A stretch of DNA of 64,000 bases, taken from assembly GCA_003218375.1 (NCBI GenBank), contig QHNH01000029.1:1-64000 (forward strand). The letters are read 5' to 3'. The DNA is from Verrucomicrobiota bacterium. Its GTDB lineage: Bacteria; Verrucomicrobiota; Verrucomicrobiia; Chthoniobacterales; UBA10450. Positions 12,750 through 16,774 of this stretch are shown one piece after another. Within the stretch, counting starts at the first letter, position 1, and each line of letters begins with the position of its first letter. The position numbers and the translations under genes are program-made. The notes under the pieces were generated by a model. That model saw nothing but the letters and a program-made list of their open reading frames with translations, searched no databases and was not told the origin of the DNA.

Positions 12750-12904
12750 CGGTTTGTTTGGCTCCAGAGTGTTCTTACCCGGGTGGGGCCGCGCGCCATT
12801 CCTCTTCCTGAGGCATCGCAGTTCCCCGCAGGAAAAATATGCTGGGCGGGGAAAGATTTTTATTGCCTAAAAGCGGGGGAAGCCCTACTATCGTTTTTGT
12901 GGAT

Positions 12905-13750
12905 ATGGAAATTATGAGAACACTCGCCTCCGCCTTTGCCAAGTCTTCCGCCTGCATTCTGGTCTCCGCCTCGACCCTTTTTGCATCGGATATTGTCCTC
13001 CAAAAAGTGCCTGAAACGGTGTCGGACAAGACTCCCATCACCTCGAAGTCTAACCTCAGCCCGCAAGCGAGCTTCGCGCTGATCAACTACAACGTTCGCA
13101 CACAGGCGCGCGCCCTCTATGTCAGTTCGGGAGGGGATCTCAAGACCGCGAACAACATGATCGATGATCAGGCCGCGACCTCGTTTGTTTTTTCACCGGC
13201 GGATAATTCGCCTGTGACCATTATCGATCTCGGAAAAGTGGCGACTGTGCGCCGCCTCTCGGCAGTCTATTCGCCACGCACTACGTCCATCGACTTTTAT
13301 GTTCTGCAAACGCTGCCGGGCGTGGATGGGAACAACAGTGCGGCCAGTTCGTTCAAGCTGGATGAAAAAACGCTCGCGAAACTGAAAGCCGTCGGTACGG
13401 CTATCGACGATGGCACCCAGGGCCGCGCTTCGATCGATTTCCCGGCCACTTCGGGACGTTATGTGATGTTGCATTGGTCGCCGGCCGCGCACAGCGACAC
13501 TGCGTTCACGGTCGCCGAGGTCTCGGCCTTCAGCCCGAGCCGCGGTAATCTCCTCGCTTCAAACCGGGATTTCTCCACCGCGCGGACCACGGTGGATTCG
13601 AAGGACGTCGCTGATTCGAAAGATGTTTCCGACAACAAAGACATCCCCGAAGAAGCTCCTCCGCAGCCGCCGGCTGAAGGTCCGCCGCCGCCACTTCAGC
13701 CTCCTCCTCCGTTCACCTTTATTCCGCAGCTCGTCCCCGCCAGCGAGTAA
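12905..13750 (+). CDS. Secreted protein with discoidin-like (F5/8 type C) domain and proline-rich tail
   Basis: The 281-residue protein has a signal peptide (ending near FASDI). A region at about residues 65-205 looks like a galactose-binding-type beta-sandwich: NMIDDQAATSFVFSP, VTIIDLGKVATVRRLSAVYS, and GRYVMLHWSPAAHSDTAFTVAEVSAFS. These mirror the start, hinge and end of F5/8 type C domains, which bind glycans or surfaces. The C-terminus repeats D-x-KDV units, then runs into a proline-rich tail. Two near starts (12905 and 12914) are possible. A GC-rich palindromic terminator follows. I cannot say what it binds. Confidence 0.7.
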   Translation: MEIMRTLASAFAKSSACILVSASTLFASDIVLQKVPETVSDKTPITSKSNLSPQASFALINYNVRTQARALYVSSGGDLKTANNMIDDQAATSFVFSPADNSPVTIIDLGKVATVRRLSAVYSPRTTSIDFYVLQTLPGVDGNNSAASSFKLDEKTLAKLKAVGTAIDDGTQGRASIDFPATSGRYVMLHWSPAAHSDTAFTVAEVSAFSPSRGNLLASNRDFSTARTTVDSKDVADSKDVSDNKDIPEEAPPQPPAEGPPPPLQPPPPFTFIPQLVPASE

Positions 13751-13860: not shown

Positions 13861-15141
13861 CTAGAGCAGGTCACGAATGATCTTGAAGATGGCAGTATTA
13901 TCGAGCGAGCCTTGGAAGGCATCGGTGCCCGGGCCAGCTCCGAACACAACGACATCTTCGACGGTCTCAAGCGCGACTGGAGCATAAAACGCTGCCGGTT
14001 CCTGGGGCGGTTCGATAATTGGCGAGGCAGCGGCCGGCGAGGCTGATTGTTGGGCTGCAAGCTTGGCGGTGCCATAGGATTTCATCCCATTCGGACCGCT
14101 TGCCCAGGAGAACCAGGGATCGCCGGCGGAATTTAATCCCAGCACCGCGATGCCGCGGTCTGCGCGAAAAGGCCAACCGTTCAGATGCAATCCGCCCAGG
14201 CCGACGTTTCCGCATACGACGATCGTCGATTTATCTCCAGCATACCGAAGTGCCACTGCGACGGCCCGGTCCAGTTCGGCTGTCTCCGCGAGGGTGTGTT
14301 CGCTGTCGTTTTGTTCGGCCCCTGTCCGCATCAGGTGCGCGTTGACCACTAGCAGATAGCCACCGCGATTGTATTGCAGAAGTTCGATCGCCCGCCGCAC
14401 CATATCGGGCAGGCTCGGCTGTTCCCGGCGTGCTTCAATCTGGTCTGCGTAGGCCAGTTTGCCGCTCGCGAACGCACCAAAAAGTTTCGGGCGCCGCCAA
14501 CCGGGGATTGCCTCGAGCTCGGCTTTTGTACGGGCAACGTCAAAGCCTTTGCGCCGGATTTCCGCGAGCAGGTCGCGCCCATCCTTTCGATTCCCATCCT
14601 TTGTGTCGGGCAGAAAATCCTGAGCACCACCGCCGAGCACGAGATCGATTCCTGAGGCGTCCGCTAATTGACGGGCGATCTCGAGTTGAGCCGTGGGGTC
14701 CGAGGCATGAGCATAGAACGCAGCCGCAGTCGCGTTGGTTATTTTCCCATCGCTCACCAAGCCGGTGGCTCGTCCCGAACGACGCGCGAGATCGATCAGA
14801 GTCGGCATCGCCCCTCCGCGCGACTCTGCGCCGATCGACCTGTTGTTTACTTTCACGCCCGTTGCAATCGCGGACGCGGCGGCGGCAGAGTCCGGCGCCG
14901 CAAAGTCGTTCGAATAATTTTTCACGAGCGCCAGGTGCGGCATCGAGTCGAGAGATAGCGGAACGTCCGCTCCTCCGGCAAAAACGCGCGTCGGCGCGAT
15001 TCGGCCAGGCGCCAGTCCTTCACCAACAAACAGAATGATGCCGAACGGTTTTTGCACCACCCAATGTTGAAAATAGAAAATGCCGAAAGCCGCGAACAGG
15101 GTCAGGCAGAAAAGCGCGAGCAAATGGTTGCGCCACTTCAC
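13861..15141 (-). CDS. Alkaline phosphatase fold protein, predicted catalytically dead
   Basis: The 426-residue protein has an N-terminal membrane anchor (residues 7-24) and the full alkaline phosphatase superfamily layout. The nucleophile block DSAAAASAIATGVK (S85) is intact. Every metal ligand position that I can align to E. coli PhoA is changed: D51 is E41, E322 is N267, D327 is R272, H331 is E276, D369-H370 is N312-V313, and H412 is E392. The C-terminal strand FGAGPGTDAFQG is normal. I infer a pseudo-phosphatase exposed to the periplasm, with a binding or scaffold role. Its gene converges with the discoidin-like gene and diverges from gpmI. Confidence 0.85.
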   Translation of the reverse strand: MKWRNHLLALFCLTLFAAFGIFYFQHWVVQKPFGIILFVGEGLAPGRIAPTRVFAGGADVPLSLDSMPHLALVKNYSNDFAAPDSAAAASAIATGVKVNNRSIGAESRGGAMPTLIDLARRSGRATGLVSDGKITNATAAAFYAHASDPTAQLEIARQLADASGIDLVLGGGAQDFLPDTKDGNRKDGRDLLAEIRRKGFDVARTKAELEAIPGWRRPKLFGAFASGKLAYADQIEARREQPSLPDMVRRAIELLQYNRGGYLLVVNAHLMRTGAEQNDSEHTLAETAELDRAVAVALRYAGDKSTIVVCGNVGLGGLHLNGWPFRADRGIAVLGLNSAGDPWFSWASGPNGMKSYGTAKLAAQQSASPAAASPIIEPPQEPAAFYAPVALETVEDVVVFGAGPGTDAFQGSLDNTAIFKIIRDLL

Positions 15142-15235: not shown

Positions 15236-16774
15236 GTGCCGAAGCCTGTAATCCTTATCATTCGCGACGGCTGGGGCATTAATTCGGGCGGCCGCGAAAA
15301 GCGCGAAGAAAATGGCGACGCCACCTTGCTCGCCCGCACGCCGTTTCACGACCAGCTTTACCGCGATTATCCCGGGGGGAAACTGAATGCCAGCGGTGTC
15401 GATGTCGGGCTGCCGAAAGGACAGATGGGTAACTCCGAAGTGGGCCATCTGAATCTCGGGGCCGGTCGGATCGTTTATCAGGACCTGACCCGCATCAACA
15501 AAGCGATCGCGGACGGGGAACTCGCGCGAAACCAGGTTGCGCAGGAAACATTCGCCAAAGCGCGCGGGCATCGTCTCCATTTTCTCGGCCTGGTCTCCGA
15601 CGGCGGCGTTCACAGCCATTACCAGCATCTCATCGCTCTGGCGGACGCGGCGCACGCCGCGGGGGTGACGGACATTCTCGTCCACGCTTTCACTGATGGA
15701 CGCGATACTTCGCCGACCGGCGGGGCGGATTTTCTCGACACCTGCGTCGCCGGCCTAACGAAAAGCGGTGCGAAGATCGCGACGGTCGTCGGCCGATATT
15801 TCGCCATGGATCGCGATTGTCGCTGGGACCGGACGAAGAAGGCCTGGGACGCGATTGTCCTTGGGCGAGGGGAGCGTTGTGAGACTTCGCCGGGTGACGC
15901 GGTGCGGGCGCAGTATGCGCGAAAAAAGACAGACGAGTTCTTACCGCCTCTCATTTTTTCGCACGCCGAGGAGCAACGCATTCGCGACGGCGACACGGTT
16001 TTCTTTTTCAACTTTCGCGCGGACCGGGCGCGCCAGCTTTCGCAGGCTCTTCTTATGAAGGATTTCGACGGGTTCGAGCGCGAGGTATGGCCGCAGGTGA
16101 ATTACGTCACGCTTACGCAGTACGACGTGACCTATTCCTCGCCCTTCATTTTCGCGCCACAGGAGTTGCCGAAGATCCTGGGCGAGGTCGTGAGCGCGGC
16201 CGGCAAGACGCAATTGCGCATCGCCGAAACGGAGAAATATCCGCACGTCACCTATTTTTTTAACGGCGGGATCGAGCGCGCGTTTGCCGGTGAGGATCGC
16301 AAGATCGTGCCCTCACCGAAGGTCGCGACCTACGATTTGCAGCCGGAGATGAGCGCGTGTGAAGTCACCGAGGAGGTCCTCACGCGCGTTGGCGATTACG
16401 ACTTGATCATCCTGAACTTCGCGAACGCCGACATGGTCGGGCACACCGGTGTGCTCGATGCCGGAATCAAGGCCGTCGAAACCGTCGATGAATGTGTCGC
16501 GCGGATCGTACCGGCCATTCTCGAGCGCGGCGGCGCCTGCCTGATCACGGCCGATCACGGGAATTGCGAGCTGATGCGGAACCCGGATGGATCACCGAAC
16601 ACGGCGCACACCACCAACCTGGTCCACTTCATTTACGTCGCGAAAAACGCCGGCCAGTTTCGCGTGGACGACGGCATTCTTGCGGATGTGGCGCCGACCT
16701 TGTTATTCCTGCTCGAGCTGCCGCAGCCGAAAGAGATGACCGGACGCAACCTGCTGGTGGCGAAAGCCGGCTAA
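15236..16774 (+). CDS. gpmI: 2,3-bisphosphoglycerate-independent phosphoglycerate mutase
   Basis: This enzyme interconverts 3- and 2-phosphoglycerate in glycolysis, using two Mn ions and a serine nucleophile. The 512-residue length is standard. Visible residues are the metal Asp in IIRDGWG, the serine in MGNSEVGHLNLG, FTDGRDT, the substrate loop RYFAMDRDCRWDRT, NFANADMVGHTG, and TADHGNCE with AHTT. It starts with GTG at 15236. The stop codon overlaps the stop of the convergent PD-(D/E)XK-like gene by three bases. Confidence 0.96.
   Translation: MPKPVILIIRDGWGINSGGREKREENGDATLLARTPFHDQLYRDYPGGKLNASGVDVGLPKGQMGNSEVGHLNLGAGRIVYQDLTRINKAIADGELARNQVAQETFAKARGHRLHFLGLVSDGGVHSHYQHLIALADAAHAAGVTDILVHAFTDGRDTSPTGGADFLDTCVAGLTKSGAKIATVVGRYFAMDRDCRWDRTKKAWDAIVLGRGERCETSPGDAVRAQYARKKTDEFLPPLIFSHAEEQRIRDGDTVFFFNFRADRARQLSQALLMKDFDGFEREVWPQVNYVTLTQYDVTYSSPFIFAPQELPKILGEVVSAAGKTQLRIAETEKYPHVTYFFNGGIERAFAGEDRKIVPSPKVATYDLQPEMSACEVTEEVLTRVGDYDLIILNFANADMVGHTGVLDAGIKAVETVDECVARIVPAILERGGACLITADHGNCELMRNPDGSPNTAHTTNLVHFIYVAKNAGQFRVDDGILADVAPTLLFLLELPQPKEMTGRNLLVAKAG

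Follow-up and report, generated by a model that had tools for sequence, protein, structure and literature searches.

A gene in the window (the whole stretch of 64,000 nucleotides analyzed here) encodes a protein that resembles alkaline phosphatases. The question raised by this locus is whether such a protein, with its metal ligands replaced, still acts as an enzyme or is maintained by selection for a role other than catalysis, as the original prediction suggested from the sequence.

Fold and family assignment

The open reading frame (Table 1) is a full-length PF00245 homologue with a predicted PhoA fold. PF00245 (Alk_phosphatase) is the sole Pfam family matched at E 0.001, scoring 187 bits and spanning residues 35-423 of the 426. 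This score far exceeds the cut-off, and the NCBIfam model for the E. coli-type equivalog stays below its own. Sequence search against the PDB returns alkaline phosphatases (2.4e-29 to 5e-19) and one short construct at 5e-4. The AlphaFold2 model, built with 63 aligned sequences, has a mean pLDDT of 86.8 and a pTM of 0.87; pLDDT below 50 is confined to residues 348-374. Its best structural matches are alkaline phosphatases. Compared by VIA-align with placental alkaline phosphatase (1zeb), the model gives a Z of 51.4 and an rmsd of 2.0 over 368 aligned residues, and E. coli PhoA entries have a Z of about 48. Both the Pfam score and this structural match bear out the earlier claim that the alkaline phosphatase fold remains. 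The GTG start is supported by the orthologue family of 88 members described below, since most relatives carry Met (44 of 88) or Val (28 of 88) in the same first column of the family alignment.

Table 1. Coordinates of the pseudo-alkaline phosphatase, its neighbors and its active-site positions (residue equivalents in E. coli PhoA numbering)
Feature	Position in window	Strand	Basis or note
Pseudo-alkaline phosphatase (PF00245)	13861..15141	-	GTG start, 426 aa
N-terminal membrane-anchor helix, residues 2-28	15058..15138	-	Model and conservation; membrane location inferred from hydrophobicity
E41 (zinc/magnesium ligand D51)	15019..15021	-	Alignment
S85 (nucleophile S102)	14887..14889	-	Alignment; family Ser 22, Gln 30, Ala 18 of 88
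N136 (Mg ligand D153)	14734..14736	-	Alignment
N267 (Mg ligand E322)	14341..14343	-	Alignment; Asp in 81/88
R272 (zinc ligand D327)	14326..14328	-	Alignment; Arg in 42/88
E276 (zinc ligand H331)	14314..14316	-	Alignment
N312-V313 (zinc ligands D369-H370)	14203..14208	-	Alignment
E392 (zinc ligand H412)	13966..13968	-	Alignment
gpmI (phosphoglycerate mutase)	15236..16774	+	Divergent neighbor, 94 bp gap
303-aa protein	12839..13750	+	Convergent with the pseudo-phosphatase

Active-site positions of the window protein

The protein was aligned by MAFFT to E. coli PhoA from NC_000913, with the numbering anchored on the DSAASATAW motif. We take the PhoA residue numbers and their roles (zinc, Mg, nucleophile, phosphate-binding) to be as assigned in Table 1 and below. 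The expected letter is found in PhoA at every named position, and the blocks around each catalytic site align to PhoA without gaps. None of the six zinc-ligand positions (D51, D327, H331, D369, H370, and H412) keeps the PhoA residue. The ligand positions given in the original prediction (E, N, R, E, N-V, and E) are recovered as the same list from this alignment. That H412 is lost is clear even without the alignment, since the last of the protein's seven His residues is at 319. Phosphate-binding Arg166 is replaced by Pro149 (Arg is found in only one of the 88 family members), and K328 corresponds to T273. The M3 magnesium set D51/D153/T155/E322 reads E, N, T, and N; only the Mg ligand T155 is kept, as Thr138, and the site is incomplete.

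Loss of the ligands across the family

Removal of 34 duplicates and 5 short sequences from the 154 proteins extracted left 115 rows. Of these, 88 make up the orthologue family, counted after the window's own copy (L001) had been dropped. The comparison set consists of 21 PF00245 rows, of which 6 belong to the order itself, 4 to other parts of the phylum, 1 to E. coli, and 10 to further phyla. As a control, all 21 keep D51, S102, R166, E322, D327, H331, D369, H370, and H412, with D or H at position 153 except in L059, which has Gly.

Among the 88 members, the PhoA residue at the zinc positions is kept in 30 for D51 (Glu in 56), none for D327, 3 for H331, 47 for D369, 12 for H370, and 1 for H412. 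Sixty-one members keep one of the six zinc ligands, 16 keep two, which is the maximum, and 11 keep none. With D, E, or H allowed at all zinc positions, neither M1 nor M2 is completed in any of the 88. At the other positions, D101 is kept in all 88, S102 in 22, D153 in 55, T155 in 70, E322 in none, and K328 in 44 (K or R in 65).

On a tree from which the catalytic columns had been left out, position 102 switches between Ser and other residues at least 13 times, and the residues at H331 and at H412 change at least 24 times each. Mean entropy of the nine catalytic columns is 2.02 bits vs. 1.46 for all 402 columns. The excess is modest, as 757 of 20,000 random column sets are as variable as the catalytic nine. 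An alternative His/Cys metal site was also sought by conservation. No His is conserved in 85% or more of the family, and the only Cys at this level is Cys12 in the membrane helix. H145 is His in 67 of 88 members and aligns with a His found also in E. coli PhoA and in L137, and 46 of the 88 have H69. Judging from these alignments, the catalytic site is abandoned, without one new site in its place. Parts of the pocket appear to be still constrained, since D101 is invariant and position 322 is Asp in nearly all members (Table 1).

Fifty-two of the 88 members have the whole M3 set, defined as an acid at 51, 153, and 322 and T or S at 155; 20 more fall short of it at position 153 alone, where the residue is non-acidic. 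The original prediction that all metal ligands are lost is thus correct for the zinc ligands and two M3 acids of the window protein, Thr138 being kept, but does not extend to the M3 set of these 52 relatives. Likewise, the predicted nucleophile Ser85 is present in the window protein but Ser is not kept at this position in the family. Twelve of the 52 M3-complete members also have Ser or Thr at 102, and some members may have weak Mg-dependent activity.

These M3 clusters, together with the invariant D101 and the basic residue frequent at 328, could belong to a remodeled enzyme that uses a single Mg, bound either by the remaining M3-like acids or in a new site, and acts on another substrate. There is a precedent in YejM, reported as a Mg-dependent phosphatase (PMC7576196). 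In that account, however, the nucleophile Thr of YejM is highly conserved, whereas Q, S, A, E, T, R, G, D, and N all occur at the nucleophile position in the present family, whose catalytic columns rank among the more variable. In addition, the window protein is without two of the M3 acids (N136 and N267). A remodeled enzyme is therefore unlikely, and a protein that binds without hydrolysis is preferred.

The N-terminal membrane helix

The predicted anchor is numbered 2-27 in the model, whose numbering is one lower than that of the open reading frame. R4, N5, and F16 are identical in all 88 members, and W27 is found in 84. Helix residues 2-28 have a mean entropy of 1.09 vs. 1.43 for residues 29-350. 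In the family alignment 122 columns are conserved in at least 85% of members, and 38 of these are common to no more than one quarter of the active rows. Nine of the 38 fall in the helix and its junction (K2, R4, N5, A9, C12, F16, W27, V28, and F33). Such conservation should exceed the needs of a generic secretion signal. In the model only about five residues separate the helix from the first core strand, so the domain should sit near the membrane, and the basic N-terminus points to a periplasmic domain.

Distribution and gene neighborhood

PF00245 matches are found in 50 of 58 related genomes, with no internal stop in any of them. The orthologue is present in 49 of the 58, which belong to one order (Chthoniobacterales); the match in G046 is through paralogues only. 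It is found in nearly all genomes of family f1 and also in f3, f4, f6, f7, f9, f10, and f12, and was not found in f2, f5, f8, and f11 among the 58 genomes searched. The searched genomes of f2, f5, and f8 have no PF00245 match at all, possibly through losses; the two f8 genomes are only 0.9 Mb. The carriers are mostly titled Spartobacteria, Chthoniobacterales, and Terrimicrobiaceae, and include Ca. Udaeobacter (L076) and Chthoniobacter. One contig titled Opitutus and one titled Verrucomicrobiaceae, both from MAGs, also fall within the family.

Classical PhoAs dimerize, and a pseudo copy exists together with a full-ligand PF00245 copy in four genomes (G004, G038, G041, and G057). The protein could then be an inactive subunit or scaffold paired with an active phosphatase. 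This is improbable, because no other PF00245 type is found in 42 of the 50 PF00245-bearing genomes (41 with a single copy, and G031). In the window genome (97.8% complete), the pseudo-phosphatase is the single PF00245 gene, and neither PhoD nor PhoX has a match. Compared with such a partner role, a binding or regulatory role of its own is again preferred.

Two further observations concern PF00245 copies in the order. G031 (genus g10) has two pseudo-phosphatase copies, L029 and L049. A second odd PF00245 clade is formed by L060 (G046), L061 (G045), L062 (G042), and L063 (G053). Its members keep Ser102 and Arg166, have S or T at 101, and read E, G, N, N, S, and D at positions 153, 155, 328, 331, 370, and 412. 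This His-free ligand set suggests that another metal may be used.

In 57 of 88 loci the divergent neighbor gpmI is no more than 3 kb from the pseudo-phosphatase. It is absent in 29, and in 2 the flanks are too short. The linkage looks ancestral but not required, and gpmI was rejected as a functional neighbor on account of the 29 loci without it. The 303-aa protein on the other side has no Pfam or NCBIfam match, and many relatives belonging to the same family also have it next to their pseudo-phosphatase. No neighbor is common to all 34 regions compared.

Phylogeny and selection

In a quick tree of the 115 rows, a branch with an SH-aLRT of 94 separates the 88 members from the rest. Two deeper relatives at the class level, L149 and L150, join them with a support of 83, and the site is lost in both. 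In PhoA order, their six zinc positions read N, G, R, N, F, and L in L149 and P, A, R, V, R, and P in L150, with Glu at the nucleophile position of each. The nearest active-looking relative of the pseudo family in this tree is a verrucomicrobial PF00245 protein, L059 (G038), although its placement is unsure because of a very long branch. It differs from the family in keeping S102, R166, and all six zinc ligands.

Nei-Gojobori dN/dS was calculated for 16 pairs hand-picked from close branches. The values are 0.043-0.239 over all 16 pairs and 0.046-0.239 in the 11 pairs with dS under 0.5, indicating purifying selection on the fold and the anchor. Although its catalytic residues are spread over many states, a decaying, functionless remnant of a phosphatase gene is hardly credible and is rejected on the low dN/dS (0.05-0.24) and the breadth of the family. 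Almost every genome of one taxonomic family carries the gene, as do seven other families of the order; decay is also at odds with the invariant helix residues and with the lack of an internal stop in any match.

Proposed role of the pseudo-phosphatase

The likely explanation is an ancient, order-wide pseudo-alkaline phosphatase that serves as a membrane-anchored binding or regulatory protein. A PhoA-fold domain, probably periplasmic, would be tethered near the inner membrane by one conserved N-terminal helix. Its catalytic zinc sites M1 and M2 are gone, as are Arg166, which grips the phosphate in PhoA, and, for the majority of members, the Ser nucleophile, and we infer that it works by binding and not by hydrolysis. 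Candidate modes are the binding of a membrane partner protein via the conserved helix, or of an envelope ligand via the old pocket or the surface. The original prediction of a selected non-catalytic role gains support from the orthologues in most related genomes, their single clade, the low dN/dS, and the loss of zinc ligands across all 88 members. The role is probably non-catalytic as far as sequences can tell, and the window protein, lacking the defining catalytic features, should not be classed with the alkaline phosphatase enzymes.

Built-in charges may stabilize the fold without zinc, in that Arg or Lys would neutralize the acidic pocket, perhaps through salt bridges. Arg at 327 is found in 42 of 88 members and Lys or Arg at 369 in 29, and none is basic at both. 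Positions 51/327/369 read E-R-D in 38 members and D-x-K/R in 29. The window protein has E-R-N, and several members belong to neither set (e.g., E-A-D in 6). The tree has only three changes per site, too few independent changes for a statistical coupling of 327, 369, and 51, and the replacement of zinc by Arg/Lys charges is offered as a hypothesis only. It is possible, though somewhat doubtful, that this is the founding case of an order-wide pseudo family within the PhoA lineage (PF00245), a zinc-free, anchored envelope sensor or adaptor with Arg/Lys in place of zinc and with a YejM-like logic evolved independently.

Comparison with known systems and significance

The window protein is like PhoA-type alkaline phosphatases (E. 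coli PhoA, Vibrio alkaline phosphatase, and placental alkaline phosphatase) in its full-length homology, its fold, and its D101. It departs from these enzymes at R166, at E322, and at each of the six zinc-ligand positions, and the pseudo family is membrane-anchored by a conserved helix. As far as we know, the nearest analogue by working principle would be YejM/PbgA (also LapC). This inner-membrane protein regulates LPS synthesis via LapB/FtsH and carries a domain with a hydrolase fold like that of alkaline phosphatases and sulfatases. According to PMC7576196, its membrane domain has five helices, and it retains a Mg site together with a Thr nucleophile that is conserved. Unlike YejM, the window protein has one N-terminal helix in the model, belongs to PF00245, and comes from a family with a variable nucleophile position. 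That YejM keeps its nucleophile and Mg (PMC7576196) calls for caution before superfamily members are called inactive without an assay.

Pseudoenzymes are already a known theme, and the pseudo-PhoA family is wider than could be seen from the window alone. No description of a PhoA-family pseudoenzyme was found in open-licence PMC papers, and the accessible portions of the soil phoA literature (PMC12993574 and PMC6919939) contain nothing on pseudo-alkaline phosphatase proteins. At least one genome study (PMC5615132) has used phoA as part of the grounds for inferring that Verrucomicrobia survive at low phosphate. Profile-based annotation would label the pseudo-alkaline phosphatases as alkaline phosphatase. 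One of their carriers, Ca. Udaeobacter, is reportedly an abundant soil bacterium. These proteins should not be counted as phosphate-releasing enzymes, and they probably have another job.
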